A stretch of 64,000 bases of DNA from Desulforhabdus amnigena (GTDB lineage: Bacteria; Desulfobacterota; Syntrophobacteria; Syntrophobacterales; Syntrophobacteraceae): positions 3,251,001 through 3,315,000 of the forward strand of contig NZ_BSDR01000001.1 in assembly GCF_027925305.1 (NCBI RefSeq), given 5' to 3'. Position 1 is the first letter of the stretch; every line of letters begins with the position of its first letter. Made by a program: the position numbers and the translations under genes. The notes beneath the pieces are model-generated. The model made no database searches. It worked only from the letters and a program-made list of their open reading frames with translations, and was not told where the DNA came from. Of the stretch, positions 138 to 38,682 are shown one piece after another.

Positions 138-270
138 GCATGAGGCAGAGAAAGAAAAAGGACAGCGGCAGGTGCTGAAAACCGCACAAGGTCATTGATT
201 TTTGACTTGCAGTCGATTAATTTTATAACCTCTTGAACGTTGATTTGCCCAAGTACTGAAAAACAATTCG

Positions 271-362
271 ATGGCCGGGGGGGTGCTCTCCCAGAGAGAG
301 CTGAGATCATACCCTTGGAACCTGATCCAGATCATACTGGCGGAGGAATCGGCAAACGAGAC
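271..362 (+). promoter_or_regulatory. TPP (THI-box) riboswitch aptamer
   Basis: The conserved thi-box elements are present in order: a GGGGGTGCTC arm, CTGAGATCATACCCTTGGAACC, then CTGATCCAGATCATACTGGC and a closing GGAGGAATC. This is the thiamin pyrophosphate aptamer that normally precedes thiC. An intrinsic terminator follows directly, so TPP binding is expected to stop transcription before thiC. Confidence 0.93.
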
Positions 363-375
363 AGCAATTCTCGGC

Positions 376-6692: not shown

Positions 6693-7583
6693 ATGAAATT
6701 TTGGCCGAGCGCCCTGACTTCTGCCGTTGCCCACGCATTAATCCTCTGCATTCCTGTCTCCATGACTTTGAACAACGTGAGCCTGGAGACGCCGTGTGAA
6801 GAATTTCAGTTCGTTGTCCTTCAGAGTGAAGAGTCACAGGGGGGACGGATGTTGCCGGAACCAGGCGTCCCTATTCCTCCGGCGGCTCAACAACAACCCT
6901 TTGCGCCTCAGGAAGCGGATCTATCCGAGGAAATCCCCGAACCGCAGAAGACACCTCCACGCATGGATACTCCGGAGGTGGAAAAAACTCCTCCCCTTCA
7001 GGAAAAAAAACCATCTCCCATCACCATTGCCAGAAAAACTCCGCCCCCAAAACCCAAGCCACAGAAAGAAGTCCAAAAACCTCCTGTAAAAGCGGTTCGA
7101 AGGCAGGAACCCCGTGAGGTCGCATCCACGGCTTCGACCCAAACCCCGGAACCATCGGCGGCCCCATCCGCACAAAAATCAGGTTCGGAAGAGGCATTGC
7201 CGAAGGAATCGCCCGTGGATACGGCGGGGACTGGAAATTCTCCCAAATCCGACAGCGGTTCCTCCGCGGGAAACGGCCCGATTCAAGTACCGTTCGGCTC
7301 GGGAGACGGTCCTCGATTCGTCCAAAGGGTGCTCCCCAAATATCCGCGGCTTGCCAGAGAACTGGGCAAAGAAGGAAGAGTGGTTCTGCAGCTTACTATC
7401 GATGAAAACGGGAGGTTGGCACACGTGGAAGTCGTCAGTAAGGCAGGATCCGGATTCGATGAAGAGGCCGTTCGAGCGGTGAAAAGCTCAACTTTCTTGC
7501 CGGCAAAAAGGAATGGGAAGCCCATAACCAGCATAGCGCGTTTACCGATTCGCTTTCAGTTGAGGAGTTCAAACGATGATTGA
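6693..7583 (+). CDS. tonB: TonB energy-transducing protein
   Basis: TonB couples the inner-membrane proton motive force, via ExbB/ExbD, to outer-membrane receptors. The 296 residues comprise a short N-terminal membrane segment (about 7-25), a long Pro/Lys/Glu-rich periplasm-spanning region (about 50-190, e.g. KTPPPKPKPQKEVQKPP), and a C-terminal TonB domain (about 205-292) with PKYPRLARELGKEGRVVL and FDEEAVRAVKSSTF. It overlaps exbB by 8 bp, so tonB-exbB-exbD is a translationally coupled operon. It likely powers the receptor at 8830 and possibly the one at 38683. Confidence 0.93.
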   Translation: MKFWPSALTSAVAHALILCIPVSMTLNNVSLETPCEEFQFVVLQSEESQGGRMLPEPGVPIPPAAQQQPFAPQEADLSEEIPEPQKTPPRMDTPEVEKTPPLQEKKPSPITIARKTPPPKPKPQKEVQKPPVKAVRRQEPREVASTASTQTPEPSAAPSAQKSGSEEALPKESPVDTAGTGNSPKSDSGSSAGNGPIQVPFGSGDGPRFVQRVLPKYPRLARELGKEGRVVLQLTIDENGRLAHVEVVSKAGSGFDEEAVRAVKSSTFLPAKRNGKPITSIARLPIRFQLRSSNDD

Positions 7584-8124
7584 TTTCTTTATGAAAGGCG
7601 GAGCCCTTATGTGGCCCATCCTCCTCTGTTCCGTGGTGGCTCTGGCCCTGATTCTTACCAAGGCCCTCCAGTACCGGGACATTCTCCGGAGAATCTCACC
7701 TTCCCCGGAGGAGATTATGAAGGAAAAACCTGCTGAAGTCATTCCCCTCATCGAAGCTATAGAAAAGGGACTGGACGAAAAGCAAGTTTCCTTCATCGGA
7801 ACTAGGGAAATCAGGGAGATGGAAAAAGGGCTGGGAATCCTTACCCTGGTGTCCGTCATTGCCCCTTTGCTCGGCTTCACGGGGACGGTCACAGGCATGA
7901 TTCAGGCATTCATGGTCATTGCCGCTCAGCATGGAAGCCGTGTGGATCCATCCATGGTTGCAGGCGGAATCTACGAAGCACTCATCACTACTGCAGGCGG
8001 ACTCTTCGTGGCCATCCCCACTCACATCGCTCTTCATTTTCTCGAGGAACGCCTCGATGAAATCTCCATGCGCCTGAAGGGATTCGCCATGACGCTCTAC
8101 GAGGGGAGGCACCATGGAATTTGA
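7576..8124 (+). CDS. exbB: ExbB/TolQ/MotA-family proton channel
   Basis: A 182-residue inner-membrane protein with three hydrophobic segments: about residues 9-27, 90-112 (LTLVSVIAPLLGFTGTVTGMI) and 135-155 (GGIYEALITTAGGLFVAIP). The LLGFTGTVTGMI and ALITTAGGL blocks are typical of ExbB/TolQ. It forms the proton channel of the TonB motor with ExbD. It overlaps tonB at its start and exbD at its end, as expected for a stoichiometric complex. Confidence 0.93.
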   Translation: MIDFFMKGGALMWPILLCSVVALALILTKALQYRDILRRISPSPEEIMKEKPAEVIPLIEAIEKGLDEKQVSFIGTREIREMEKGLGILTLVSVIAPLLGFTGTVTGMIQAFMVIAAQHGSRVDPSMVAGGIYEALITTAGGLFVAIPTHIALHFLEERLDEISMRLKGFAMTLYEGRHHGI

Positions 8125-8512
8125 AAGAAGGAGGAGACGCCACACGCACATTGACGTTGCACCCCTCGTCGATGTCGTCTTCAATCTGCTCCTCTTTTTT
8201 GTAATCACCTACAACGTGGTCGCAGATCCCGCCATAAAGATCCGGCTGCCGGAATCGAAGACGGCGGACACCCAGGCGGAGGAGCAAGTCGTTATTGCCC
8301 TGTCCAAAGAGGGCGAGACCTACATCGGGGAGCAGGCAGTGAAGCTCGAAGAGCTTTCATCAGTCGTTCAACAAAGATTGAGCGAAATCAAAGAACCGTC
8401 CGTCAAGATCAAAGCAGATCAGGATGTCCCGGTAGGCCTTCTCCTGAAGGTCGTCGATGCGGTCAAGCTCTCGGGGTGTTCCGCCTTCAGCATAGCTACG
8501 GCAAAGAAATAG
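8114..8512 (+). CDS. exbD: ExbD/TolR-family protein
   Basis: A 132-residue protein with a basic N-terminus (EFERRRRRHTHIDVAPLVD), one membrane span (about 20-40, containing the conserved Asp of VDVVFNLLLFFVI) and a periplasmic domain ending SGCSAFSIAT. This is the ExbD/TolR layout, in which the membrane Asp carries the proton. The gene begins inside exbB (11-bp overlap). It is the last gene of the TonB motor operon, and a terminator-like hairpin follows. Confidence 0.93.
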   Translation: MEFERRRRRHTHIDVAPLVDVVFNLLLFFVITYNVVADPAIKIRLPESKTADTQAEEQVVIALSKEGETYIGEQAVKLEELSSVVQQRLSEIKEPSVKIKADQDVPVGLLLKVVDAVKLSGCSAFSIATAKK

Positions 8513-8829: not shown

Positions 8830-11088
8830 ATGATGCATGTCCTTTCGAAGTTGAATATGGATCGCCGTACATTCGGCACAGTGAGAAGATCCATCTGCCT
8901 GGCCTGTTCCATTGGTCTCATCACGCTGCTGACGCACATGCCCGTAGAAGCGGAAGAAGAAGCGACAACGCTTGAGGAGATTGTCGTCACCGGAGAAAAG
9001 CTTGTAAAACCCACAAAACAAACCAACGAAACGGTTTACACGGGTGAGGAAGTGACCAGGAAGGGTATGGAAATCCAAGGAAACAAGGCCGACATCAGCG
9101 TATACAACGCCATAGATATTCTTCCTGGGGTAAATGTAGAAACCCCCGATCCCTATGGTCTCTCCGCAGAACAAAAAAACGTCCGTGTCCGAGGGGTACG
9201 CGGCTACCTTGGAGCGATGACCGTCGAGGGGATTCCGAACTACGGCGGGAACCCCATGGGACCGAGAGATTATATCTACGACACGGAAAATTTCAAAAAC
9301 ATAGCTGTTTACAAGGGGGCGATACCTGCCGACCTCGGAACGGGAGTCGGGGCGCGCGGAGGAGCCATAGAGATCAGGCCCTTATGGCCGGAAGAGAAGT
9401 TTGGGGCCGACATCAGTCAGGCCTTCGGTCTGAATGCTTACAGCCGCACCTTTTTCAGAGCGGACTCTGGAAAACTGCCGGTGGTGAACAGCCGCCTTTC
9501 CCTTTCCTATTCCTATACAGATGCGGATAAGTGGAAAGGGCCAGGTGGACTCGGCCCCAGAAACAATCTCAATTTCATGCTGGAACAGCCGGTAACGGGC
9601 AAAGACAGCATTCAATTCTGGTTCAATTTCAATGACATCAAGCAGGACCTCTTTAGACCGCTCAACTTCGAGGAGGTCCAGGACCTCGGCGCCAATTACA
9701 ACAAAGACTACAATGACAAATTGACGGGAGTTCGAAGCGAGGACATCAACTACTACAAATACAACCACGGCGACTTCACAAACAACGACCTTCTTTCCGT
9801 CATCCCCCTGACATTGAGCGATTCTCTCCGCCTAACCTTCAAACCATACTATTCGCTTGAAGATTCGGAGATTCTCAACGGATCGATCTCTCAGGGGGGC
9901 CTTGTTCAAAAAAGGACCAGGGACATCGAGCGATATGGTTTGATCTCGGAGGTCAATTATGACTTTTCTTTCCTGAAAGCGTCACTCGGCTACTGGGTTG
10001 AATCATCGGATATGAAAATCTATACTCAGAATTATGTCCCGGATACGCTTGAATACAAAGGCTATGGAGTTTACAGCCAAAATGACGACAACGGAATCGT
10101 CCACAGCCCCTTTTTGAAGCTGGCGGGGAGCCTATGCAATTTTGACTGGCAGGCGGGCCTCAAATATTTCTACTACAAGGACCCAAGCAGTGAGGGATAC
10201 GTCTCCAGCCCTCCGACCTACGATCTTTTCAGGGCAACCGATCTGGACAGGGAATCTAAAGAATACGAAGAATTTCTTCCAACTTTGGGAGTCGCTTATA
10301 ATTTTACAGATTCCTTGCAGGCTTATACGAGCTACGGCAGAAACCAGATCAGACCCTACGCCTATGTTCCATTGATCAGCTTATACAATCAAAACAGGGC
10401 AACGTTTCAAAAGGCGGGCATCACTTTGAATGACCTCTTCAACGGGTACGACATGGAAATTTCCGACAATTTTGAGGTGGGAGCCAGGTTTCGAAGAGGC
10501 TGGTTTGAAATCATGCCCGCGGTGTTTTATTCCATGCACGAAAATCTCCTCACCACTGTCTACGATCCCAGAGTCAACCTCAGTTATTATCAAAATATAG
10601 GGGATGCCACGGGGTATGGCTTCGAAATAGAGACCAACTTTTATGTCAACGACAGCATCACCCTTTTTGTCAATCCCACCTACACCAGCCTCACGTACGA
10701 CGGGGATTTGACCTACCAGGGTAGTATCCTGGATACCGACGGCAAGCAGGTGGTCGATACCCCGGAGTGGCTCGTCAAGACAGGCGTGCTCTGGAAATAC
10801 AAAGATTTTGAAGTGGTGCCCACTCTGACCTATGTCGGCGCCCGCTATGGCGATGCAGAACACACGGAAAGAATCGGAGATCATTTCCTGGCAGATCTCA
10901 AGATGAACTATACCCTGAAGAAATTACCCGTGGCGGAAGCACTGAAAGTTTCTCTTGAACTGTATAACCTGTTTGATAATGAATATGTGTCCGTGATCAA
11001 TGCCATGGACGACACGAGGGCGGGAAGCACCAGCTACTTTGTGGGAGCCCCCTTCACCGCCCTGATGAAGGTATCGCTGGCCTTTTGA
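8830..11088 (+). CDS. TonB-dependent outer-membrane receptor (TBDR1)
   Basis: A 752-residue receptor that imports a chelate or other large solute across the outer membrane. After a signal peptide (cleavage near AEA-EEE, about residue 41) comes a TonB box-like TTLEEIVVTGEK. A plug domain follows (about 75-195: VYNAIDILPGVNVETPD, NVRVRGVRGY, IAVYKGAIPADLG), then a beta barrel ending in VSLAF with a terminal Phe. It lies just after tonB-exbB-exbD, is followed by a TsaA-domain gene, and faces a Dpp/Nik-type ABC operon containing an FmdE-family gene. The ligand is inferred to be a metal chelate; the sequence alone does not prove it. Confidence 0.93.
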   Translation: MMHVLSKLNMDRRTFGTVRRSICLACSIGLITLLTHMPVEAEEEATTLEEIVVTGEKLVKPTKQTNETVYTGEEVTRKGMEIQGNKADISVYNAIDILPGVNVETPDPYGLSAEQKNVRVRGVRGYLGAMTVEGIPNYGGNPMGPRDYIYDTENFKNIAVYKGAIPADLGTGVGARGGAIEIRPLWPEEKFGADISQAFGLNAYSRTFFRADSGKLPVVNSRLSLSYSYTDADKWKGPGGLGPRNNLNFMLEQPVTGKDSIQFWFNFNDIKQDLFRPLNFEEVQDLGANYNKDYNDKLTGVRSEDINYYKYNHGDFTNNDLLSVIPLTLSDSLRLTFKPYYSLEDSEILNGSISQGGLVQKRTRDIERYGLISEVNYDFSFLKASLGYWVESSDMKIYTQNYVPDTLEYKGYGVYSQNDDNGIVHSPFLKLAGSLCNFDWQAGLKYFYYKDPSSEGYVSSPPTYDLFRATDLDRESKEYEEFLPTLGVAYNFTDSLQAYTSYGRNQIRPYAYVPLISLYNQNRATFQKAGITLNDLFNGYDMEISDNFEVGARFRRGWFEIMPAVFYSMHENLLTTVYDPRVNLSYYQNIGDATGYGFEIETNFYVNDSITLFVNPTYTSLTYDGDLTYQGSILDTDGKQVVDTPEWLVKTGVLWKYKDFEVVPTLTYVGARYGDAEHTERIGDHFLADLKMNYTLKKLPVAEALKVSLELYNLFDNEYVSVINAMDDTRAGSTSYFVGAPFTALMKVSLAF

Positions 11089-11142
11089 TGCGTCCTTGAT
11101 TTGAAGCATCAGATGTGTGTTCTAAAGATCCAAGGAGCAGGT

Positions 11143-11565
11143 ATGACGAAAGACGTTCCGTTCTTGCTGCAGCCGGTCGGTGTGGTCCGCTCACCGCTCA
11201 AGTCCCGGGAAAATTGCCCCAAACAGGGATCGGAAGGGGCTCCGGACGCCTGGCTGGAAATCGATCCGGCTTTCACCGAAGCCCTGGACGGCCTCACGGT
11301 CGGGTGCGAGATCTTCGTTCTGACCTGGCTTCACAAGGCGCAGCGCGATCTCCTCAAGGTCCACCCTCGAGGCAATCCGGCCCAGCCTCTTCGCGGAGTT
11401 TTCGCCACGCGCTCCCCGCACCGTCCGAATCCCATCGGCCTGCACCGGGTGGAAATTCTGGAGATTCAGGAATCCGGCCGCGTAAGAGTCCGCCCGCTGG
11501 AAGCTCTGGACGGAACGCCGATCGTCGATATCAAGCCGGTGATACAGGGCACCAGCGGAAGGTGA
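11143..11565 (+). CDS. TsaA-domain (TrmO-like) protein
   Basis: A 140-residue single-domain protein of the TsaA/YaeB family. The hallmark is ATRSPHRPNPIGLHRVEI near the middle, followed by LEALDGTPIVDIKPV. E. coli TrmO, which has this domain plus a C-terminal extension, methylates t6A37 in tRNA; short stand-alone versions like this one are not functionally settled. ATG 11143 follows AAGGAG. The gene begins 55 bp after the receptor gene on the same strand. Because the neighbours are metal-uptake genes, a role other than tRNA modification is possible. Confidence 0.85.
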   Translation: MTKDVPFLLQPVGVVRSPLKSRENCPKQGSEGAPDAWLEIDPAFTEALDGLTVGCEIFVLTWLHKAQRDLLKVHPRGNPAQPLRGVFATRSPHRPNPIGLHRVEILEIQESGRVRVRPLEALDGTPIVDIKPVIQGTSGR

Positions 11566-11610
11566 CGGCTGAAGGACATCTGTGAAATCTGCGTAATCTG
11601 CGGATCCATT

Positions 11611-11719
11611 TAAAGCCTATCCGAAAACCCTCCTCGGCAGCAGCCCCCCTTCAATTCTCCCCTCGAGGGGGGACTAAGGGGGTGTTCCAAAGTCCACAAG
11701 AGGTTTCCGGATAGGCTTA
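11611..11719 (-). repeat. MITE-like repeat R1, copy 2 (inverted)
   Basis: TAAAGCCTATCCGAAAACC at the left and GGTTTCCGGATAGGCTTA at the right flank a centre containing CCCCTCGAGGGGGG and CAAAGTCCACA. The internal sequence is reversed relative to the other R1 copies. A short ATCTGCGTAATCTGCGGAT motif lies just before it; a similar one lies just after the copy at 28137. Confidence 0.88.
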
Positions 11720-11747
11720 GCCCGACTTTCAACACATCAGAACCGCC

Positions 11748-12593
11748 CTACGGGATCGAAACCTCGCGATGGCGCATTTTGGCGGTTTCAATGAGTTGCC
11801 GCGTCACCTCGTGACGCGGCCTTGAAAGGATCTCCCCCGGAGGACCTTCTTCCACGATTGTCCCCGCGAAGAGCACCAGAAGACGATCCGCCACATAACA
11901 GGCCGTGGCGAGATCATGAATCGTTATAAGGACCCCCATCCCTCCGGCGGCAAGGCGGCGGATCAGGTTCAGGATACCGACCCCCGCCGAGGCATCCAGC
12001 ATGGAAGTGGGTTCATCGGCCAGAAGCAGATCCGGATGTGTAATGATAGCCCGCGCTATGGCCACACGCTGCCTTTGTCCTCCCGAAAGGCGGCCCGGGT
12101 AGCGATCCAGGTAGGCTTCGGGAGGAGTCAAACGAACCGATGTCAGGGCCTCCCGGACCCTCCGGCTTTCACCCTCTCTATCCCCTTTGATTCTCAGGGG
12201 CTCCAGGACCGTCTCCCGGATTCGAAGATGCGCAGAAAGCGCCGCATACGGGTCCTGAAAAACCAGGGACATCCTTTCCCGCCCGCGGCAGGTCTCCTCC
12301 AGGGGAAGCGCTCTTCCCTGGAAAAGCCCTTTTCCCGAATCAGCCCCCAGAAGTCCAGCCACGACATGAAGGAGGGTGGTCTTTCCTGCACCGGAGGGTC
12401 CAACCAGAGCGACCACTTCGCCCTTTCGAAGCGTCAGGTTCACCCCTTTCAGTACTTCAACAGCCCTGCGCCCGGAACGAAAGCTTTTCGTCACGCCCCG
12501 CAATTCCAAAATCTGCGGTGCCGATTCCTGAACGAATCCGATATATCCTTCGTCCCCCTCCGGATACTTCTGCAGGGTTTGAATCATCACCAT
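11748..12593 (-). CDS. ABC transporter ATPase, Dpp/NikE type (second ATPase)
   Basis: A 281-residue ATPase with Walker [10 protein letters not shown], signature LSGGQRQR, Walker B LLLADEP and the H-loop ITIHDLATA. It drives import through the permease pair encoded upstream. The longest open frame extends to 12680, but ATG 12593 lies inside the last codons of the FmdE gene (GGGGATGGTGA), which implies translational coupling and is the more likely start. It lacks the C-terminal Cys-containing oligopeptide extension seen in the first ATPase. It is the last gene of the operon. Confidence 0.9.
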
Positions 12594-13198
12594 CCCCGGT
12601 TGTAATGTTCCGAACAGGGAATACAGGCGATCTTCCCGTCTCGAAACCTGGCCCTCGGTTCCATGACCTCCTCGCCGCAATACTCGCAGGTCACGGATTT
12701 GAAAATGCGGGCCCGGCTCGGGATTTCGGGCTGAACATCCTCGATCTTGAAAAGGTCATTCAGATCGGCCGCCAAGAGCTCATCCACGCGTTCTTTCTGG
12801 AAAGCCCGAAAGGTTTCCTCTTCCTCCTTCGAAGCCTCGCCTTTCAGCACCTTCTGAAAAACGGCCTCCTGCTCAGGATTTCTGCGAAAGGGCCCCCGTC
12901 TCATGGCCAATCGAACCGCTTTTCCTTTTTTACGGCAGATCACCGTATACACCTGTTTCCCATGATCCTGGTAGATGAGATTGCCCTTGCCGAGAGTGCA
13001 TCCCAGAAGCGCTTGAATGGCATCTACACCGCATCCATCGGATTCTACAATGGCGACCAGTTCTTCATCTTCCGGACGGTCCACTCCCAGGTGCTCCTTC
13101 GCGGCTTTGGCCGCCCGATATCCAATGAGTAAACCGGGGCAGACGTGACCGTGAAACTTGATCGATTCCTGAAGATCCTGGGGGTACTCTGTTGTCAT
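12587..13198 (-). CDS. FmdE-family protein with C-terminal zinc finger
   Basis: A 203-residue cytoplasmic protein of the FmdE family, named after a protein linked to molybdenum formylmethanofuran dehydrogenase; the family's biochemical role is not established. The N-terminal domain shows FHGHVCPGLLIGYRAA, ESDGCGVDAIQ and CTLGKGNL, whose His and Cys residues are probable metal ligands. A four-Cys finger follows at Cys171, 174, 192 and 195. The gene lies within an ABC importer operon and overlaps the second ATPase gene, so it probably handles the imported metal or its chelator. Another FmdE domain occurs at the second receptor locus. Confidence 0.9.
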   Translation of the reverse strand: MTTEYPQDLQESIKFHGHVCPGLLIGYRAAKAAKEHLGVDRPEDEELVAIVESDGCGVDAIQALLGCTLGKGNLIYQDHGKQVYTVICRKKGKAVRLAMRRGPFRRNPEQEAVFQKVLKGEASKEEEETFRAFQKERVDELLAADLNDLFKIEDVQPEIPSRARIFKSVTCEYCGEEVMEPRARFRDGKIACIPCSEHYNRGW

Positions 13199-13325
13199 GA
13201 TCGTTTCTCCCTTTTGAAAAAAGTTTTGTTTTCATGGGAATGTAATGCATCCCCGCAAGAAAGTGCAGCTTTCCAACCTCAAACGGTGCAATGTTAAGTA
13301 CCAGAGCACAAGTTTTCGAACATTC

Positions 13326-13440
13326 TAAGAACCTATCCGGAAACCACCTGTGGACTTTGCGACACCCCCCTTGGTCCCCCCTCGAGGGGGGAATTAAAGG
13401 GGGTGTCCGCTGCCGAGGTAGGTTTCTGGATAGGTTCTAA
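13326..13440 (+). repeat. MITE-like repeat R1, copy 3
   Basis: TAAGAACCTATCCGGAAACC and GGTTTCTGGATAGGTTCTAA form the terminal inverted repeats around TGTGGACTTTGCGACA and CCCCCCTCGAGGGGGG. The copy lies between the first ATPase gene and the FmdE gene, splitting the ABC operon. The adjacent 13199-13325 interval shows no gene. Confidence 0.9.
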
Positions 13441-13451
13441 ATAATACCCGC

Positions 13452-14393
13452 CTACAGACTTGGCAAAAAACACCTCACTCTGTGGTTTCCCCGCACCTGA
13501 AGACTCGGACTTTCCCGCCCGCACCGTTCCATTGCATGAGAGCACCGATCGAGAAAACCGCATTTCCGGGGAGGAGCCGAAATGGGAAGAGCGTACCCTG
13601 GAATGCTGCGGCGACTCAAGGGGGGATCTCCCATTCGAACGGAGGCATTCATGAGCCCCTTTGTGTAGGGGTGCAACGGCCTTCGCATTTCATCCCCCGG
13701 CAACTCCTCGACAATCTCTCCACGATAGAGCACTGCGATGCGCTTCGCCCACCGGCCGGCCAATCCGATATCATGGGTAAAAAGGATGACGCTCGCGTGG
13801 TGGGCGGCGAGCCAATCTTCCAAAAACACAATCACTTTTTCACGGGTCAGTTCGTCGAGAGCGTTGGTCGGTTCATCCAGGAGCAGAACTTCCGGCGCAT
13901 TCAAGAGGGATAGGACCAGGGCCATGCGTTGCTTCTGACCGCCTGACAGTTGATGCGGATAGCATGACCAGAGGGAAGCGGGCAGATCCAGAGGCTCGCC
14001 AAGGGGAGCCAGGAGACCCAGAACGCTCTTTGCATCGAGCTTTTTATTTTCTCCATTTTGTATCACCTCGCGGGCCGACTTCCAAAGCACCTGAGCCGGA
14101 TGAAAGCTGTCCTGCGCATTTTGGGGAACCAGAGCGATGCGGCGATAATAAAGGCGGGCGCGTTCGCTTTGAGAGAGGGCCAAGAGGTTACACCCGCAAA
14201 AGAATACCTCCCCTTCCAGTACCTCCTGCCCCGGCAAAGGCCGCCCCAGAAGGGCCCAGGCAAGACTCGTCTTTCCCCCGCCCGATTCACCAACCAGTGC
14301 TACCCGGTCTTCCTTCCCCAGTTGAAGATCCACTTTCCAGACAGGATAAAGGGCCTTTCCGGCACGTAATATAAGATTCTTCGCCGCGAGCAT
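13452..14393 (-). CDS. ABC transporter ATPase, Dpp/NikD type (first ATPase)
   Basis: A 313-residue ATPase with Walker A GESGGGKTS, Q-loop VPQNAQDSF, signature LSGGQKQR and Walker B LLLDEPTNA. Beyond about residue 255 it carries the oligopeptide/dipeptide-type C-terminal extension with spaced cysteines (CGFLDRC, MERCGRE, VRCF); in DppD/OppD proteins such cysteines bind an iron-sulfur cluster. It overlaps the upstream permease gene by 1 bp. With the second ATPase it would form the heterodimeric motor of the importer. Confidence 0.92.
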   Translation of the reverse strand: MLAAKNLILRAGKALYPVWKVDLQLGKEDRVALVGESGGGKTSLAWALLGRPLPGQEVLEGEVFFCGCNLLALSQSERARLYYRRIALVPQNAQDSFHPAQVLWKSAREVIQNGENKKLDAKSVLGLLAPLGEPLDLPASLWSCYPHQLSGGQKQRMALVLSLLNAPEVLLLDEPTNALDELTREKVIVFLEDWLAAHHASVILFTHDIGLAGRWAKRIAVLYRGEIVEELPGDEMRRPLHPYTKGLMNASVRMGDPPLSRRSIPGYALPISAPPRKCGFLDRCSHAMERCGRESPSLQVRGNHRVRCFLPSL

Positions 14394-15241
14394 TACAAGG
14401 ACTCCTCGCTGCGCAGGGCCTCATCGAGCCCATAGCCCGCCAGAGTAAATGAAAGCACCGCAACACTCACCAGCAGGGAAGGCGGCAAAAGCCACCAGCT
14501 CCAGGCCGATGTCCAGAGCAGCCCGGGATAGTCGAGAGCGCTTCGAATCATCATACCCCAGCTTCTCAGGGTGGGATCTCCCAGCCCCAGAAAACTCAGC
14601 CCCGCCTCGGCCACAATGGCATGACTGGCCGTGGCCGCTCCCTTGGCCAGCAGGAGAGGCAGCAGTTCCCGCACGAGATGCTTTCTGAGGACATAAATGA
14701 AACCCGCCCCTGAAAAACGGATGAACCGGATGGCTTCTTTTTCCCGAAGGGAAAGGACCTGGGCCCTTATGGTACGCGCCACTCCCGGCCAGGCGAGCAA
14801 AATGAGGACCGCCAGCACATTCGTGAGACGGGGCTTCAGGAAGACGGCAAGCAGGATGATGAGAGGCAGCCGGGGAATGGCCATGAGCACGTCTACCGAA
14901 CGCATGAGCAAGACTCCCAACCGCCTGGGATAAAAACCTGCGCAGGCCCCTACCCCAAAACCGATGGTTGTGGATAGAATGCCGACCGACAGAGCGGTCA
15001 CGGTGGAAATGAAGCATCCTGAAAGCGCCTGGCTGAAGATGTCTTGCCCAAGTCCGTTGGTCCCGAACCAGTGCAGAAGACTTGGAGGAGAGAGGCTTGG
15101 CCCGGAAACGGATTCAGGCGGATAAGGAGTCCAGCACAGGCTCAGCAGGGCAAGAAGAGTCAGAAGCACGATTCCAAGGATTCCGGTTCGTCCCAAATGC
15201 TGGTTCCATGCCGATGCAGCCAACTCTTTCCAATGGTGCAA
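14393..15241 (-). CDS. ABC transporter permease, DppC/NikC type
   Basis: A 282-residue inner-membrane permease with an N-terminal span (about 20-38) and a core of five further spans. The cytoplasmic EAA loop is visible around EAGLSFLGLGDPTLRSWGMM, typical of DppC/NikC proteins. It pairs with the permease encoded 4 bp upstream and overlaps the ATPase gene at its end. The family carries dipeptides, nickel or metal-opine chelates; the neighbouring receptor and FmdE gene favour a metal chelate. Confidence 0.92.
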   Translation of the reverse strand: MHHWKELAASAWNQHLGRTGILGIVLLTLLALLSLCWTPYPPESVSGPSLSPPSLLHWFGTNGLGQDIFSQALSGCFISTVTALSVGILSTTIGFGVGACAGFYPRRLGVLLMRSVDVLMAIPRLPLIILLAVFLKPRLTNVLAVLILLAWPGVARTIRAQVLSLREKEAIRFIRFSGAGFIYVLRKHLVRELLPLLLAKGAATASHAIVAEAGLSFLGLGDPTLRSWGMMIRSALDYPGLLWTSAWSWWLLPPSLLVSVAVLSFTLAGYGLDEALRSEESL

Positions 15242-15245
15242 AGCC

Positions 15246-16220
15246 TCACACCTCCTTCACGCGCGGATCCAGGTTCACATAAAGGCAATCCGTGCAAAAA
15301 TTGATGAGAAGGACCCAGAGGGTAAAAGCCAGAAAAGCCCCCTGGAGCAGTGGATAATCATGGCTGAGGACCGCTTCGTAGCTCAGGCGCCCGATGCCGG
15401 GATAGGCGAAAAGGACCTCCACGAGGATGGCTCCGCCGGCAGAATAAGCAAGCCGCAGCCCGAAGAAGGTCACCACAGGAAGCAACGCGTTTCTCAACAC
15501 GTAATGGTAGCGCACCCGTCGCTCGGGCAACCCCTTTATTTCCGCCATGAGCACATAGGGTTCGTCGGTCACCAGAAGCACTGAACTCCTCACCACGAGA
15601 TAAGCGGAAAAAAAGCTCGATGCGGCGAGCACAAGTACCGGTAGCGCCGCATGATACGCCAGATCCAGCACCTTTCCAAAACCCGTGAATTCTGAAAAGG
15701 GACTGTACGCACCGCTCAAGGGAAAGATCGGGATCTTCACACTCAGCAGGATCAGCAACAGGCTCCCCAGCACAAAAGGCGGCATGCTTTCCAGGCAAAC
15801 TGCGGGAACGAGCACCCGCCACTCCCGTCTTTTCTTCCATCCGGAATGGGTCCCGAGAAACAGGGCAGCGGAGAAGCTCAAAAGAAGAGCACTCAAAGTC
15901 AAAAGGAGAGTCCATGGGAACCGTTCCACCAGAATGCCTCCCACCGGTGCGCGATAGCTGATGGACCAGCCCAGGTCTCCACAAGCCAATCCTTTGATAT
16001 AATTATAAAATTGAACAGAGATGGGGAGATCGAGTCCGTAATGTCTTCGAAGGGCCTTGAGTGTTTGAGGATCGAGCTGGACGGGCAGATTCCCCACTCC
16101 ACTGCTCAACTCCTCGATGGGATTCCCCGGGATGGCCCGGGGAAGAAAAAAATTGACCGAGAGCGCTGTCACAAACACTAGAAAGTAGGTCGCGGCCCTC
16201 CTGCCGAGATAGGAAATCAC
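15246..16220 (-). CDS. ABC transporter permease, DppB/NikB type
   Basis: A 324-residue permease starting ISYLGRRAATYFLVFVTAL, with the hallmark LPRAIPGNPIEEL after the first span, LGWSISYRAPVGGILVERFP in the middle, and the coupling loop near YAYPGIGRLSYEAVLSHDYP. Six transmembrane segments are predicted by eye. Its start overlaps the end of the binding-protein gene by 4 bp, and the partner permease follows after 4 bp. Confidence 0.92.
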   Translation of the reverse strand: MISYLGRRAATYFLVFVTALSVNFFLPRAIPGNPIEELSSGVGNLPVQLDPQTLKALRRHYGLDLPISVQFYNYIKGLACGDLGWSISYRAPVGGILVERFPWTLLLTLSALLLSFSAALFLGTHSGWKKRREWRVLVPAVCLESMPPFVLGSLLLILLSVKIPIFPLSGAYSPFSEFTGFGKVLDLAYHAALPVLVLAASSFFSAYLVVRSSVLLVTDEPYVLMAEIKGLPERRVRYHYVLRNALLPVVTFFGLRLAYSAGGAILVEVLFAYPGIGRLSYEAVLSHDYPLLQGAFLAFTLWVLLINFCTDCLYVNLDPRVKEV

Positions 16221-17830
16221 GGCTTCCTTCCCTTTATGAAAGCGAGTTTGTTATAGGGCAGTGGAACGCCTATGCCGATGCCGCCCTCTCCCGTATAAAA
16301 CCAACCCTGAAAAACGTCCGGCCGATAAGCGATGAACCATACCGGATAATAGAGAGGAAGTACGGGAAGTTCACGTGCGTAGAGCTGCTGCATGGTTTTG
16401 CAGAGGGCCATGCGTTCTGCGGGATCAGAACGGATGGAGAGCAATTCGGCTGTCCGAAGGTATTCCGGGTCTTTCGGCATGCCGGCAGAAAAAGGATCGT
16501 CCCGCGCACCCCCGAATCCATAGATGATGGATGGGTCTCCCCCGAGCCCCCCGTGCCCTGTGAGGGCCAGGTCGAAGCGGCCTTCCCGCACCATGGCATC
16601 CAGGGTCTTGATGTCGAGAGACTTGAGATCCAGGGTGAAACCGATTTTTCGCAGCATCAACTGCAGCGCTTCGGCTTCGCGCAGATAGGATGAGGTGGTG
16701 AGGAGTGTGAACTGCATGGGTTTTCCGTTGGAATCTTCACAGACCCCATCTTCGTTCCGATCCCCGATACCGGCCATTTCCAGGAGCTCACGACTCCGGA
16801 CGGGATCGTAGGAATAAAGGTCTTTCAAGGAGGGATCGTACCAGTTGGAGTCCGGGGACATGAACCCCGGGTTGCCGGGCTTCGCTCCTTCGAGGCCTCC
16901 GGGAACGGACTGTTCGATCAGTGCCTTGCGATCGACGGCGTGAGCCAGGGCGTGACGGACTTGCACCTCCGAAAAAGGGAACCGGTTGAGGTTGAACTGC
17001 AGGTTCAACACCCAATAAGAAGGGCCGGAAAGCAACTGAAACCTTTTATCTTCTCGGAACTTCGCCAAAAGAGATGCAGGAACGGTCGCCTCGGCCACGA
17101 CACCGCGTTCAAGAGCCGCCACGGGATCTCCAACGGGTACGAAAAAAAGCTTCCGCACTCGGGGCTCTCCAAGGAAAAATGCCGGATTCGCATCGTAGGC
17201 ATAAGCCCCCTGAGCCTTGTCATATTGCACCAGGCGATAGGGTCCGCTCCCCACTACGCGATCCGGAGCGGAAGTCTCCCGAGGATTCGAAACGTCCCGC
17301 CAGATGTGCTCGGGAAGAATGGGCACGCTCCCTGCAATCTGGTTCAAAAAAGGGGCATAAGGACTCTCCAGGTAAAAGACGGCGGTCAGATCGTTTGGAA
17401 CTTCCACATCACGGACTTTTTCCAGAGAAAACCACTCTACGGGGTAACGCTTCAGGTAATCGAAGGTGAAGCGGACATCACGCGCGGTGAGAGGCTTTCC
17501 ATCCTGCCATTGCACACCCGGGTGCAGGTGGAAAGTCCAGACCAGGCCATCCTGTGAGCATTCCCAGTTCTTCGCCAGCCAGGGGATGGTCCCCTGGTGG
17601 TCCTTCCAGACCAGGGTGTCATAAATGAGGCTCAAATGAACGTAGCCCATTCCTCTCGGGTAGAAGGTAAAAGGAGTCGGCATCCCCCAGTCCCCGCCGG
17701 GCAGATGAATTTCTATGGCATCACCCGTTCCCGATCCTTCCCCGGCTTCGGAAAAGCTTTCACCTCCTCCACTGCAGGAACAGAGCAAAAAAATCGCAAG
17801 CCAGGCTGCGCCCACAAGTCGAAGTATCAT
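16217..17830 (-). CDS. extracytoplasmic solute-binding lipoprotein, DppA/NikA family
   Basis: A 537-residue family-5 solute-binding protein that would deliver its ligand to the DppBC-type permease. I chose ATG 17830 because AAGGAGGT precedes it and the protein then begins with a signal sequence ending in the lipobox-like LLCSC. The SBP_bac_5 core is clear: YDTLVWKDHQGTIPWLAKNWE, WTFHLHPGVQWQDGKPLTARDV and RHALAHAVDRKALIE. No His-rich nickel site stands out. The transcript has a long leader with a terminator, so expression is probably attenuated. Confidence 0.92.
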   Translation of the reverse strand: MILRLVGAAWLAIFLLCSCSGGGESFSEAGEGSGTGDAIEIHLPGGDWGMPTPFTFYPRGMGYVHLSLIYDTLVWKDHQGTIPWLAKNWECSQDGLVWTFHLHPGVQWQDGKPLTARDVRFTFDYLKRYPVEWFSLEKVRDVEVPNDLTAVFYLESPYAPFLNQIAGSVPILPEHIWRDVSNPRETSAPDRVVGSGPYRLVQYDKAQGAYAYDANPAFFLGEPRVRKLFFVPVGDPVAALERGVVAEATVPASLLAKFREDKRFQLLSGPSYWVLNLQFNLNRFPFSEVQVRHALAHAVDRKALIEQSVPGGLEGAKPGNPGFMSPDSNWYDPSLKDLYSYDPVRSRELLEMAGIGDRNEDGVCEDSNGKPMQFTLLTTSSYLREAEALQLMLRKIGFTLDLKSLDIKTLDAMVREGRFDLALTGHGGLGGDPSIIYGFGGARDDPFSAGMPKDPEYLRTAELLSIRSDPAERMALCKTMQQLYARELPVLPLYYPVWFIAYRPDVFQGWFYTGEGGIGIGVPLPYNKLAFIKGRKP

Positions 17831-17911
17831 AGCGGTTTGACCTCCTTGAAGATGATGAGATACCGGACAGTGAAGGGCGACACCTTTGCAGAATTCCTGC
17901 CGGTGTAAGAC

Positions 17912-25956: not shown

Positions 25957-27024
25957 TCAAAGGACGATTTCAGGAACTGCCAGGCGGAGCCCGGCCAGCT
26001 TTTCTGCATCCCTGGAGGCGACGATCACACCCGTGTCCGAGCCGAGGGCAATGAGATCCGTGACGTGAAGTCCTTTGCCCGTGAGCTGCTCACGCACCCA
26101 CTCGGCGGCAAAAACCTTCCCGTTGTAAGTATTGAGCAGCATGTTCAAGTCAAAAAGGGCGGCCTTCTGGGGACGATGCTCCCGGAAAAAGTCGTGGACG
26201 ACCAGGAAGCCGTCGGAAGTGAGGCATCGCCGGGCTTCATCCAGCAGATGGACGGCCTCGGTCTGCGCATAGGCGTGGAGCACATTGGAGAGGACCACGA
26301 GATCGAAGGCCCCTTCGCTCACCGGCCAGGGCTCCAGGATATTGGCCGGGCAAAAAGTCATTCGATCTTCCAGCTTCCTCGGGCGCAGCAATTCGACGGC
26401 ACAATCCAGTACGTCCGGCAAATCGAGCAGGGTCGCCACGGCGCCGGGAAAACGCTCCAGGAAACCGGCCGATACGGCCCCGGAACCCGCTCCCACATCC
26501 AGGATATTTCCCGAAACAGGGCCGAAAAGCGGCAGAATCTCCCGGATCTTGATCCGGGCGACATCATCCATGGCGCGGATGTAGCTGCGGATGCGCCTAG
26601 CGAGCTGCCCGGGTTCCCGGGCAACGGAGTCGGGGACTCTTCCGCCGGCCTTGAGAGAGCCCTTCAGGTTCCCCCAGGGAGCGGCAAGGTACCTGCGCCA
26701 GAGGATGGAATTTCCCTGGTAGCCTTCCTTCCCTTTGACGAGGTAGTTTGAAGCGATTGGGGTGTTGTAATAGAACCCGCCATTATAGGTTGCCAGACCC
26801 ATGGCGCAAAGCGCATCGAGAAAGCGCTCCACTGCCGGGGCATCGCATTCCAGCAGCTGCGCCATTTGAGCGGCGGAGCTTCCCCCTGGATCGAGCCGGG
26901 AAAAGACATCCAGCTCCACCGCGGTGAAAAGCGCTTCCGAAAACCAGTATCCCGTAGCCAGATCCTCCAGATACTGCGCACCGCTCTCCCGGGAGTCATG
27001 TTCCAAAAACGGCAGATGTCTCAT
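25957..27024 (-). CDS. bzaC: BzaC, hydroxybenzimidazole O-methyltransferase
   Basis: A 355-residue SAM-dependent O-methyltransferase. It has an N-terminal winged-helix dimerisation domain (about 20-100) and a catalytic domain with NILDVGAGSGAVSAGFLERF (about 170-190), then LVVLSNVLHAY and LVVHDFF. In the anaerobic lower-ligand pathway BzaC methylates 5-hydroxybenzimidazole to 5-methoxybenzimidazole. The assignment rests on both the family and the operon order bzaA-bzaB-cobT-bzaC. It begins 10 bp after cobT. No bzaD or bzaE gene follows, so the pathway should stop at the methoxy compound unless those genes lie elsewhere. Confidence 0.88.
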   Translation of the reverse strand: MRHLPFLEHDSRESGAQYLEDLATGYWFSEALFTAVELDVFSRLDPGGSSAAQMAQLLECDAPAVERFLDALCAMGLATYNGGFYYNTPIASNYLVKGKEGYQGNSILWRRYLAAPWGNLKGSLKAGGRVPDSVAREPGQLARRIRSYIRAMDDVARIKIREILPLFGPVSGNILDVGAGSGAVSAGFLERFPGAVATLLDLPDVLDCAVELLRPRKLEDRMTFCPANILEPWPVSEGAFDLVVLSNVLHAYAQTEAVHLLDEARRCLTSDGFLVVHDFFREHRPQKAALFDLNMLLNTYNGKVFAAEWVREQLTGKGLHVTDLIALGSDTGVIVASRDAEKLAGLRLAVPEIVL

Positions 27025-27034
27025 CCTGCATCCC

Positions 27035-28099
27035 TCAAGATTTTCTGCTCACCCCAGCATCCTCGAAGGTGAGCATCTTGTTGATCACCTGCGCCGCGGA
27101 TTCCACGATATTCATGGCCAGGGCCGCCCCGGTTCCCTCTCCCAACCGGAGGTTCAGATTCAACAGAGGCTTCAGGCCCAGTTCCTCCAGCATCAACCGG
27201 TGCCCGGATTCCAGGGACTGATGGGCGGCGATCATGTAGTCCAGGGAAGGGGGAGCCAGCCTTTTGGCCAGCAAGGCCCCCGCCGAGGAGATGAAGCCAT
27301 CCACCAAAACGGGCACCTTGTGGCGGGCGGCCCCCAGGATCAGGCCGGCAATGCCGCCGATCTCGAATCCGCCCACTTTGGCCAGAACATCCACGGGGTC
27401 GGCGGGGTCGGGGCTGTTCACATCCAGGGCCTTTTCTATGACGCGGATTTTATTTTCGAGGGCATCGTCGCCGATTCCCGTCCCCCTTCCGGTGACTTCC
27501 CGGACCGGGTACCCGGAAAAGGCCGCAAGGATGGCGCTACTCGGCGTCGTGTTGCCTATGCCCATGTCTCCGGTGGCGAGCAGTTCAACGCCTTCTCGAA
27601 CCAGGCGACCGGCGATCTCGATGCCGGTCTCGAGGGACTTCACGGCCTGCTCGCGGCTCATGGCCGGGCCCTGAACCATATTGCGCGTACCATAGTCCAC
27701 CTTGCGGAAGAGGACTTTTCCTTCAAACGACCTGTCCAGATCGCTGCCAACCCCCATGTCCACAACCACCACGCGGGCCCCCACGACCCCTGCCAAAACG
27801 TTGATGGCCGCCCCCCCGGCTACGAAGTTCGCCACCATCTGGGGGGTCACCTCCCGTGGAAAGGCGCTCACGCCCTCCTCCACCACCCCATGATCCGCAG
27901 CCATGGTCACCACCGCTTTGCTCGTGACGGACGGCCGGAGGCTCTCCTTGACGGCCGCCAGCTGTTCCGCCAGACCCAAAAGATCTCCCAGGCTTCCCTG
28001 GGGAATGGCCAGGTTATCCAAATGTTTCCTGGCCTTTAGACGCCAGTCGGCGCTCAAGGGTTTTATTCCCTCCAAAGTAGTCTGAAGTATCGATCCCAT
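27035..28099 (-). CDS. cobT: nicotinate-nucleotide:dimethylbenzimidazole phosphoribosyltransferase CobT
   Basis: CobT activates the benzimidazole lower ligand to its alpha-ribotide before attachment to the corrin. The 354 residues are the usual length and show TMAADHGVVEEGVSAFP, the substrate loop ATGDMGIGNTTPSSA, GGFEIGGIAGLILGAA, and the catalytic Glu in LRLGEGTGAAL. GGAGGGAATCG precedes ATG 28099. It sits in the bza operon between bzaB and bzaC, but a MITE-like repeat separates it from bzaB. Confidence 0.95.
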   Translation of the reverse strand: MGSILQTTLEGIKPLSADWRLKARKHLDNLAIPQGSLGDLLGLAEQLAAVKESLRPSVTSKAVVTMAADHGVVEEGVSAFPREVTPQMVANFVAGGAAINVLAGVVGARVVVVDMGVGSDLDRSFEGKVLFRKVDYGTRNMVQGPAMSREQAVKSLETGIEIAGRLVREGVELLATGDMGIGNTTPSSAILAAFSGYPVREVTGRGTGIGDDALENKIRVIEKALDVNSPDPADPVDVLAKVGGFEIGGIAGLILGAARHKVPVLVDGFISSAGALLAKRLAPPSLDYMIAAHQSLESGHRLMLEELGLKPLLNLNLRLGEGTGAALAMNIVESAAQVINKMLTFEDAGVSRKS

Positions 28100-28136
28100 T
28101 CGATTCCCTCCGATTCCTTGAAATAGAGCTGGTTTC

Positions 28137-28252
28137 TTAGAACCTATCCAGAAACCACCTGTGGACTTTGCGACACCCCCCTTGGTCCCCCCTTGAGGGG
28201 GGAATTAAAGGGGGGTGTCCGCTGCCGAGGTAGGTTTTTGGATAGGCTCTTA
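28137..28252 (+). repeat. MITE-like repeat R1, copy 5, inside the bza operon
   Basis: TTAGAACCTATCCAGAAACC and GGTTTTTGGATAGGCTCTTAA flank TGTGGACTTTGCGACA and CCCCCCTTGAGGGGGG. It lies in the 236-bp gap between bzaB and cobT. An ATCTGCGCAATCTGCGGAT motif follows it. The strong central palindrome could affect transcription or RNA stability within the operon. Confidence 0.9.
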
Positions 28253-28335
28253 ATCTGCGAAAATCTGCGCAATCTGCGGATAAAAAAGTCTGATGGCCAG
28301 ACCTCCGATTTTCATCATCCCCATTCAATCCCGGT

Positions 28336-29616
28336 TCAGGCGATGCCGAAATACCGGGCTGCGACCTGCGCCGCGCACTGGGGGCCGCAAACGGCACAGC
28401 AATGGCCGCCGTCCCTGTTTGCGCCGTTCGCTTTCATCTTTTCGGGATCGATGGAAAGGCCGATTTGCCGGTCCAGGTTCAGGGCCACCCGGGCCCGGGC
28501 CATCTGCAGGTCCTTCGAGAGAGCCTGCCTGTTGCCTCTGGCCAGGTCCGCCGCGTGGGCGGCGATGCGGGCGGCGATGATCCCATCCCTGACATCCTGT
28601 TCCGTGGGCAGCCCGAGATGTTCCGCCGGTGTGACATTGCAGATGAAATCGGCACCGGCCGCACCGGCTATGGCGCCGCCGATGGCCGAAGTGATGTGAT
28701 CGTATCCGGGGGCGATATCGGTGGCCAGTGTTCCCAGGACAAAATAGGGTGCGCCGTTGCACAAACGCTTCTGCAGCAGCATGGTTGCCCGGACATGGTG
28801 CATGGGGACATGCCCCGGTCCCTCCACCATGACCTGGACTCCGGCCGCATGAGCTCTCGCCACCAGCTCACCGCCAATGATCATCCCCTGCAGCTGCGCT
28901 CCATCGAGGGAATCCGCCGTCGCACCGGGCCGGATGGCGTCTCCCAGGCTCAATGTCACGTCGTAGCGCTTCAGGATCTCGAGCAACCGGTCAAATTGCT
29001 CATACAAGGGGTTTTCCTTATCGTTGTGCAGCATCCAGCCCGTGAGGAAAGCTCCACCCCGGCTGACCACGTCCGTGACCCGCCCGGTGGTCTTGAGGCG
29101 CTCGATGACCTCGAAGTTCAAAGCGGAGTGGATCGCCATGAAGTCCACACCTTCCGCCGCCTGCCTCTCGATGGCCGCGAACATATCGTCCGCCGTCATG
29201 GCCACCACGCTTCCCCGCTTTTCGATGGCCTCGATGGCGCACTGGTAGATGGGTACGCTTCCGACGGCAACCGTTGCCTGCGCCAGCGTCTGCCGCCGCA
29301 CGCCGTCGATATCCCCGCCGGTGCTCAAATCCATCACGGCATCGGCCCCCGCATCCTGCGCGACGGCAAGCTTGCGGGCTTCCATCCGGATGTCGTCCCG
29401 ATCGCTGGAGGTACCGATCAGGGTGTTCACTTTAACCCTCAAACCCTGTCCGATACCGCAGCAGGTGAATGCTTTTCGCCTGATGTTTTTGGGAATGACG
29501 ATGCTCCCCGAAGCCACTCCAGCCTGTATAAACTCGATATCCACATTCTCCCTGTGAGCCACCATTTCCATTTCGGGAGTGATTCTGCCCGCACGGGCCG
29601 CCAGCACCTGAGTCAT
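28336..29616 (-). CDS. bzaB: BzaB, ThiC paralogue of anaerobic benzimidazole synthesis
   Basis: A 426-residue radical-SAM ThiC paralogue. With BzaA it is expected to convert aminoimidazole ribotide to 5-hydroxybenzimidazole. Family blocks are MDLSTGGDIDGVRRQ, MVEGPGHVPMHH and APGYDHITSAIGGA; the C-terminal cluster motif is CAVCGPQC. It is the second of two tandem ThiC-like genes (16 bp after bzaA) behind a cobalamin riboswitch, matching the known order bzaA-bzaB-cobT-bzaC. The position, rather than sequence alone, decides A versus B. A thiamin role is unlikely, since another thiC has the TPP riboswitch. Confidence 0.88.
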   Translation of the reverse strand: MTQVLAARAGRITPEMEMVAHRENVDIEFIQAGVASGSIVIPKNIRRKAFTCCGIGQGLRVKVNTLIGTSSDRDDIRMEARKLAVAQDAGADAVMDLSTGGDIDGVRRQTLAQATVAVGSVPIYQCAIEAIEKRGSVVAMTADDMFAAIERQAAEGVDFMAIHSALNFEVIERLKTTGRVTDVVSRGGAFLTGWMLHNDKENPLYEQFDRLLEILKRYDVTLSLGDAIRPGATADSLDGAQLQGMIIGGELVARAHAAGVQVMVEGPGHVPMHHVRATMLLQKRLCNGAPYFVLGTLATDIAPGYDHITSAIGGAIAGAAGADFICNVTPAEHLGLPTEQDVRDGIIAARIAAHAADLARGNRQALSKDLQMARARVALNLDRQIGLSIDPEKMKANGANRDGGHCCAVCGPQCAAQVAARYFGIA

Positions 29617-29632
29617 GGATTCATCCTTTCTC

Positions 29633-30931: not shown

Positions 30932-31010
30932 CAGATCCCTTTCCTGGTGTTGATTTTATTCATCAGGACCGGCACTTGGTTTACGCATGCACCATGCCGC
31001 CTTTCAGAAC

Positions 31011-31046
31011 AAAAAAAAGTCCATGCCGATTACGGCATGGACTTTT
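31011..31046 (-). terminator. terminator of the cobalamin riboswitch
   Basis: AGTCCATGCCG pairs with CGGCATGGACT around ATTA and, on the minus strand, is followed by eight T. It lies between the aptamer and the bzaA start and is the likely transcriptional off switch. Confidence 0.88.
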
Positions 31047-31099
31047 CCATCATCCATGAACACCTTGTACCAACCCCCACGGGTTGTGTTCATACACTT

Positions 31100-31270
31100 T
31101 CAGGCAGGTCTCCTGGCTCCCGGATTAGAACGCCCGCGCCTCCCTTCCCGCCTGCCTTGCCAAAAACGGACGACCGACGGTGGATATGAGGTGGACTACC
31201 GGTTACAGTGGCGGGACCGCCCGGGATTTTCACCCGGTTCCCTATTCTCCCTTTCGGGCACCTGGAAAGT
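31100..31270 (-). promoter_or_regulatory. cobalamin riboswitch aptamer
   Basis: On the minus strand the conserved order of the cobalamin aptamer is visible. AATAGGGAACCGGGTGAAAA is followed by TCCCGGGCGGTCCCGCCACTG with the B12 box GCCACTGTAACC, and the closing arm is GAGCCAGGAGACCTGCC. It precedes bzaA, so the lower-ligand operon is expected to be repressed by cobamide. Confidence 0.93.
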
Positions 31271-31415
31271 GCTCATCTCAATTTTTTGCGACCCTTTTTA
31301 TTCATACCGCGAGATTTTGTCAAAAGAATTCTCACGGTAAAAGGGGGCAGGCCTTCTTGGACAAGCACTTTTTCTTTTTGATTTTGTCCTATGTCAAGGG
31401 CTGACCCCATATGCA

Positions 31416-33919: not shown

Positions 33920-33926
33920 GGGATCA

Positions 33927-35311: not shown

Positions 35312-35377
35312 TGTTCTCTCCATTGAAGAGACTTGTCCTGCGGGGTAGGCTACCGTCTTCGTTTTCCCGTTGTAGAA

Positions 35378-36602: not shown

Positions 36603-36648
36603 ACGAAGCTTGAGAAGTGAACATTCGGCGAGGTGGCGGGAGGGGCAT

Positions 36649-38647: not shown

Positions 38648-38682
38648 GTCTTATAGTTCTGGTGGGATCAAGGAGGGGATAC

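Follow-up and report, generated by a model that had tools for sequence, protein, structure and literature searches.

The FmdE family (PF02663; solved structures 2glz, 2gvi, and 3d00) is a group of metal-binding proteins whose role is unsettled. According to PMC2954224 (2010), its classical home is in molybdenum and tungsten operons, its metal site is His-His-Cys-Cys (with mixed Zn/Ni in 2glz), and a regulator-like role has been suggested for its zinc-finger forms; section 3.7 counts 13 of 208 family members as neighbors of fmd genes and "most" as neighbors of metal-ion transporters. A general link between FmdE and metal transporters is already in print. Here we describe a 64,000-nucleotide stretch of the Desulforhabdus amnigena genome (NZ_BSDR01000001.1, positions 3,251,001 to 3,315,000; hereafter the window), a genome of 4.54 Mb in a single contig. 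Two FmdE genes of the window lie beside genes for TonB-dependent receptors, one at a locus with an ATP-binding cassette (ABC) importer (locus 1) and one at a locus with an energy-coupling factor (ECF)-type importer (locus 2).

At locus 1, much as in the opine-metallophore (Cnt) and NikABCDE import systems, a receptor accompanies an SBP_bac_5 importer; FmdE and TrmO are additions. Its FmdE protein, FmdE#1, shares the HxHxC...C motif of the described family and has a zinc-finger match. Locus 2 has parts in common with NikKLMQO and CbiMNQO ECF importers (CbiM, CbiQ, CbiO-type, NikL-like, and DUF4198) but differs in having NikL split into two open reading frames (ORFs), a tandem CbiO encoded on the other strand, and two extra components, a receptor and a fusion protein. 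The FmdE domain of that fusion has the family fold; unlike the described proteins, it is exported, joined to a nucleoside hydrolase, and has Gly as the third ligand. The hydrolase half, in turn, shares its fold and calcium-site aspartates with RihA and the inosine-uridine nucleoside hydrolases (IU-NH) and differs at the equivalents of N39, E166, and H241.

The pairing of FmdE with TonB-dependent receptors is real and enriched, and its meaning is partly known. We put at roughly 0.45 the probability that both FmdE proteins are accessories of nickel or cobalt uptake that act where the journey of an imported metal chelate ends. The D. amnigena genome has four FmdE matches and six receptor plugs; each of the two FmdE genes of the window has a receptor gene within 2 kb, which is true of neither of the other two. 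Outside this genome we assembled the 40 best-scoring cytosolic-type FmdE matches after removal of the window's own (FmdE1 set), all from one phylum and not a random sample, with up to 20 kb of sequence examined per locus. Receptors were sought with a local plug profile that finds all six receptors of D. amnigena, three of which are its training sequences. A receptor occurs in 12 of the 40 loci, against 0.56 expected from Pfam plug counts per genome, and each of the 12 has one receptor above the Pfam Plug cut-off. The enrichment predicted for other genomes by the initial annotation is therefore found. This and the other locus tests are uncorrected for kinship between loci. In L163, L165, L188, L189, and L191, only 7 to 377 bases separate FmdE from the receptor gene. 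Much of locus 1 is repeated in three loci from the window's family (L187, L190, and L192). Among the 40 loci, FecB-type binding proteins occur in 12 (the three tested match PF01497), SBP_bac_5 in 5, and TrmO in 6; in L178, an FmdE-TrmO fusion of 357 residues adjoins an SBP_bac_5 operon.

Pfam confirms each component of locus 1 as first described, namely, a TonB motor, receptor, and TsaA gene facing a Dpp/Nik-type ABC operon with FmdE. The FmdE#1 gene sits between the two ATPase genes of that operon, about 250 bases with inverted repeats separating it from the upstream one. It also overlaps the last ATPase gene, as had been noted, but by a single base (TGATG); the longer ORF overlap arises only from an early TTG. 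FmdE#1 scores 154.5 bits against PF02663 (curated cut-off, 22.9) and matches structure 2gvi at 1.9e-13. Aligned to 2gvi and 2glz, it has the HxHxC and distant Cys of the metal site within the motifs FHGHVCPG and CGVDAIQ, and no signal peptide was seen in its sequence. For the locus 1 binding protein, the NCBIfam models that score best are NikA and CntA, each under its cut-off.

The second FmdE domain was also correctly placed, beside a receptor and a NikKLMQO-type importer and behind an export signal, but it is the C-terminal part of a fusion rather than a lone domain. The fusion ORF has 560 codons and likely starts at the GTG at 40975, behind a Shine-Dalgarno-like GGGAGG. Its predicted signal peptide of 21 residues ends in SWA, so that the mature protein would begin with His (41038). 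The N-terminal half matches PF01156 (4e-28; 99.4 bits against a cut-off of 34.2), and the FmdE domain matches PF02663 above the curated cut-off (1.9e-10; 41.4 bits); a Pfam scan of the fusion gave no zinc-finger family. A structure model of the mature fusion (predicted local distance difference test [pLDDT], 89.8; predicted template modeling score [pTM], 0.66) matches RihA-type nucleoside hydrolases (3g5i, E value of 5.8e-16). At E values below 0.001, a model of the FmdE part (pLDDT, 89.2; pTM, 0.83) matches only the FmdE structures 2gvi, 2glz (chains A and B), and 3d00. PCNA, a candidate likeness from a PDB sequence search (E value of ~0.1, with 2gvi at 0.13), was dropped since the fold search returned FmdE only.

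Relatives of the exported form were collected by one genome-contig scan with seven query sequences, which gave 52 loci, or 53 with the window (FmdE2 set). A hydrolase half is fused in 41 of these and was not detected in the other 12, of which L103 is truncated by a contig end and L117 has a hydrolase-like N terminus that the search overlooked. Two sequence sets, A3 and A4, hold 43 and 32 of the 53 sequences, respectively. By title, the 52 loci span ten lineage names: Deltaproteobacteria/Desulfobacteria, Zixibacteria, Acidobacteria, Aminicenantes, Verrucomicrobia, Gemmatimonadetes, Krumholzibacteria, Nitrospirae, Bacteroidetes, and Abyssobacteria. Within the phylum of D. amnigena, 20 of 297 genomes have a match, eight of them (D. 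amnigena included) at an E value of 1e-28 or better; the form is therefore patchily distributed. His358, His360, Cys400, Glu356, and Asp403 are invariant in all 43 aligned exported-form rows. In the 34 aligned fused rows, the equivalents of the calcium-site aspartates (D10, D14, D15, and D242) and of N168 are invariant, and T126 is retained in 30.

Within 6 kb of the exported form, we found NikR in 9 of 53 loci, CbiM in 9, CbiQ in 7, NikL-like proteins in 11, amino-acid permeases in 12, and CbiO-like ATPases in 13, the last being a loose class that other ABC ATPases also match; Pfam bore out the examples that were checked. These relatives suggest that, in many bacteria, the exported form belongs to nickel (or cobalt) uptake. 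A receptor lies equally close in 26 of 53 loci, a raw count; receptors are common in Bacteroidetes. Tetrapyrrole-methylase proteins occur in 14 of 53 loci (e.g., L077 2541..3461, L082 6522..7430, L083 4800..5717, and L106 5019..6032), Pfam-confirmed in the six tested and bearing signal peptides where read. S-adenosylmethionine is not expected in the periplasm.

The mature N terminus is a further shared feature, with signal peptides and N termini judged by eye or by explicit sequence rules. By eye, 34 of 41 fused forms have Ala or Ser and then His immediately behind the signal peptide, and 2 have Pro-His there; the 5 fused forms without a mature N-terminal His are all Bacteroidetes by title. 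A regular-expression count also gave 34 of 41, with one wrong match (L120) and one right one missed (L093). Intact stand-alone exported forms have this His in 7 of 11 cases. A stricter finder scored 24 of 41 fused and 5 of 12 stand-alone forms as beginning with His; it did so for 23 of 228 other proteins as well, and 18 of these 23 were judged to be NikL- or DUF4198-like neighbors. Under a loose rule, by which His is a possible first residue, the counts were 35 of 44 for FmdE2, 12 of 13 for NikL-like proteins, and 18 of 382 for other exported-looking proteins; they were 8 of 20 for tetrapyrrole methylases, 4 of 46 for receptors, and 4 of 23 for CbiM/Q/O. The 13 of 13 for the DUF4198 class was set aside as circular, because that class is partly defined by an AH motif. 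Nickel superoxide dismutase and copper monooxygenases use an N-terminal His of this sort.

The two forms keep different company. Chelate-type ABC importers (FecBCD or SBP_bac_5) lie within 6 kb of FmdE in 18 of 40 FmdE1 loci versus 3 of 53 exported-form loci (Fisher's exact test, 9e-6, kinship ignored), whereas CbiM or CbiQ does so in 0 of 40 versus 10 of 53 (0.004, kinship ignored). This comparison, framed after seeing the data, sets FmdE1 loci of one phylum against FmdE2 loci of many; the window is outside the 10, its CbiM being just over 6 kb away. Cytosolic FmdE thus goes with chelate-type importers and exported FmdE with ECF importers of ions, a correlation in keeping with a protein stationed where transport of the chelate ends.

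In the mechanism that we infer from these domains, export signals, conserved residues, and gene neighborhoods, FmdE would act at that point on the imported chelate to remove its nickel (or cobalt). At locus 1, the chelate would pass intact through receptor 1 and the ABC importer with the NikA-like protein to reach the cytosol; there, FmdE#1, with its His-x-His-x-Cys plus Cys site and zinc finger and probably with the TrmO-like protein, would free the metal or alter the chelator. Receptor 2 of locus 2 would deliver its chelate no further than the periplasm. There the fusion might bind it through the nucleoside-hydrolase pocket, the His/His/Cys site of the FmdE domain, and the mature N-terminal His, and then hand the bare ion via NikK/NikL to NikMQO. 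A fuller version makes the exported FmdE a periplasmic nickelophore stripper in which the His exposed by signal cleavage is a metal ligand, as it would also be in NikL-like proteins, and the hydrolase half has been repurposed to hold a natural nickel chelator that is glycosylated or resembles a nucleoside, FmdE being placed in whichever compartment the chelate reaches; taken with all its parts, this version is doubtful. The role of FmdE becomes approachable protein by protein through a form that is exported, is conserved in nickel-uptake gene sets, and has a receptor partner and an N terminus predicted to bind metal. Should the proposed role in nickel uptake be true, nickel chelators made in nature and uptake of nickel across the outer membrane of anaerobes would also be indicated.

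Receptor 2 matches a siderophore-receptor model (2e-32) better than a B12-receptor model (4e-15), both below the cut-off. Assigning receptor substrates from the nearest solved structures was uninformative, and the CntO names partly rest on a chain also named FoxA. The importer parts seen at locus 2 are CbiM, CbiQ, the CbiO-type ATPase, and the NikL halves, which score 96.6 and 53.8 bits, each below the NF058648 threshold of 100; DUF4198 is the only candidate for the K component. Relatives of receptor 2 at an E value of 1e-90 occur in 24 of the 297 phylum genomes, D. amnigena included. We fetched 17 of their regions, two of which (L209 and L210) duplicate places in L188 and L186. Among the genes listed for these 17 regions, there is no exported FmdE form. 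Cytosolic-type FmdE is present in L198, L207, and L209, adjoining the receptor gene in the first and last of these, and Pfam-confirmed NikR lies within about 3 kb of the receptor in L206, L207, and L208; a NikR box with one mismatch precedes the operon in L206. Both FmdE forms thus go with one receptor family. A small class I methyltransferase gene also recurs by these receptors: L199 10875..11486, L209 7949..8566, L201 8340..8945, and L197 5208..5822 (all Pfam-confirmed), as well as L198, L200, and L204.

Regarding the metal, the NikR proteins near the exported form match NikR_C in the two tested, and the six sequences read carry an HxH...C pattern like that of the known NikR nickel site. We scanned 840 kb with the deltaproteobacterial NikR box given in PMC545781 and with its reversed and enterobacterial forms, allowing up to 2 mismatches. 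Five of the 13 matches fall upstream of receptor, fusion, NikR, or CbiM genes, regions that make up 2% of the sequence and in which 0.16 would be expected from the remaining sequence and 0.41 from shuffled upstream regions; this test, too, was devised with the data already in view. For the exported-form group, nickel is the more likely metal; for the window, it may be either nickel or cobalt. As a separate observation from the same genome, L070 3554..11357 encodes a CbiK with a signal peptide, preceded by a cobalamin riboswitch; the region also has another riboswitch, a receptor, and an ABC ATPase.

Several results weigh against a shared role in nickel or cobalt uptake. No receptor lies in the sequence examined at 28 of the 40 FmdE1 loci, 8 of the 40 being on contigs shorter than 8 kb. 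Among the 53 exported-form loci, 16 (8 with Bacteroidetes titles) lack all three of receptor, CbiM/Q/O-like gene, and NikR within 6 kb. All but one of the 52 exported-form loci are titled as metagenome-assembled genomes, the exception being NaphS2 (L094). The third classical metal ligand of FmdE, a Cys, is Gly in 43 of 43 exported-form rows, which leaves an incomplete four-ligand site of His, His, and Cys. In the hydrolase half, every one of the 34 fused rows has other residues at the equivalents of N39, E166, and H241 (for the most part A/V/S, G/D/S, and W, respectively). N39 and E166 are the ribose-binding Asn and Glu and H241 the catalytic His, with numbering and roles following the IU-NH literature; because of these replacements, ordinary nucleosidase activity is doubtful, and this half may bind a sugar without cleaving ordinary nucleosides. 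The total of 13 NikR boxes is at chance level (~17 in shuffles), the window has no NikR box at up to 2 mismatches, and a search of the D. amnigena genome at an E value of 0.001 found no NikR. A cobalamin riboswitch and a bza-like operon, with ThiC-family, CobT, and methyltransferase genes, lie about 1.7 kb past CbiQ. Given this operon and riboswitch and a genome without NikR, the metal of the window may be cobalt.

These last features also favor a role of the exported fusion in corrinoid or cobalt scavenging, in which the receptor would import a corrinoid and the hydrolase half would act on its nucleotide loop. PMC2667541 reports NikKMLQO operons near B12 genes or riboswitches in five proteobacteria that may carry cobalt. 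The tetrapyrrole-methylase neighbors and the below-cut-off B12-receptor match of receptor 2 agree with such a role, although the siderophore model fits that receptor better. Among 28 of the 52 exported-form loci scanned, however, a B12 riboswitch appeared only in L088, about 8 kb away, and the NikR genes and promoter boxes point to nickel, and we consider scavenging unlikely, though credible. It is quite improbable that FmdE acts here as a metal sensor or regulator-like protein: the C-terminal zinc-finger match of FmdE#1 recalls the 2010 proposal for such forms (PMC2954224), but the fusion lacks this match, an exported protein cannot act on DNA, and the metal-site His, His, and Cys are retained in both forms. 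We give similarly little credence to the pairing being a by-product of metal-gene islands, with FmdE serving molybdenum or tungsten enzymes and lying near receptors by clustering chance. The other two FmdE genes of D. amnigena are indeed fused to or beside a molybdopterin-binding MoCF_biosynth domain (L006 8467..10101 and L005 8206..9984), in keeping with the classical home of the family; the tight receptor adjacency, the TrmO fusion, and the exported form beside NikR and CbiM/Q argue otherwise. For the proposed metal- or chelator-handling role in two compartments, the receptor enrichment and the distinct importer partners of each form speak in favor; the FmdE1 loci without receptors, the molybdopterin-linked genes, and the earlier report of a general metal link temper it, and function itself stays conjectural.

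A literature search (titles and abstract openings, with most subscription journals outside its reach) found no paper on the exported fusion and none on FmdE with TonB-dependent receptors or a nucleoside hydrolase. A nickel survey of cable bacteria (PMC11247825) mentions neither FmdE nor nucleoside in its text. As far as the literature searched goes, the exported nucleoside hydrolase-FmdE fusion, its NikR and receptor context, its N-terminal His, and the association between the compartment of FmdE and the type of importer beside it are new. The features of the window are listed in Table 1.

Table 1. Features of locus 1, locus 2, and the adjoining bza-like operon (window coordinates)
Feature	Position	Strand	Basis or remark
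TonB	6693..7583	+	Pfam PF03544
ExbB	7576..8124	+	Pfam PF01618
ExbD	8114..8512	+	Pfam PF02472
TonB-dependent receptor 1	8830..11088	+	Pfam PF00593 (5e-31), PF07715
TrmO_N/TsaA protein	11101..11565	+	PF01980 (2e-26); TTG ORF start at 11101, Pfam run from 11143
Last ABC ATPase, NikA/Dpp-type operon	11748..12587	-	PF00005; ATG start
FmdE#1	12587..13198	-	PF02663 (2e-45); PF01258 C-terminal zinc-finger match
Upstream ATPase, NikA/Dpp-type operon	13452..14393	-	Pfam
Two permeases	14393..15241, 15246..16220	-	Pfam
NikA-like SBP_bac_5 binding protein	16217..17836 (ORF to 17968)	-	Pfam; NCBIfam TIGR02294 NikA (4.6e-40, below cut-off)
bza-like operon: two ThiC-family genes, DBI_PRT (CobT), methyltransferase	25957..31281	-	Behind cobalamin riboswitch
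Cobalamin riboswitch	31086..31281	-	Heads bza-like set
CbiQ	32957..33958	-	Pfam
CbiM	33927..34547	-	Above a cut-off
Two NikL-half ORFs	34577..34972, 34976..35323	-	Halves of NF058648
DUF4198/NikK-like protein	35378..36376	-	Pfam; no NCBIfam match
Double CbiO-type ATPase	36610..38343	+	PF00005, 2 stretches
TonB-dependent receptor 2	38560..40713	+	PF07715 (3.6e-19)
Exported nucleoside hydrolase-FmdE fusion	40975..42531	+	PF01156, PF02663; FmdE domain at ~42106..42507

Two further observations concern the same genome. Another receptor gene of D. amnigena stands beside another TrmO-like gene (L068 7675..10761), and a thiamine pyrophosphate (TPP) riboswitch lies near the start of the window, at positions 269..365 of the plus strand.

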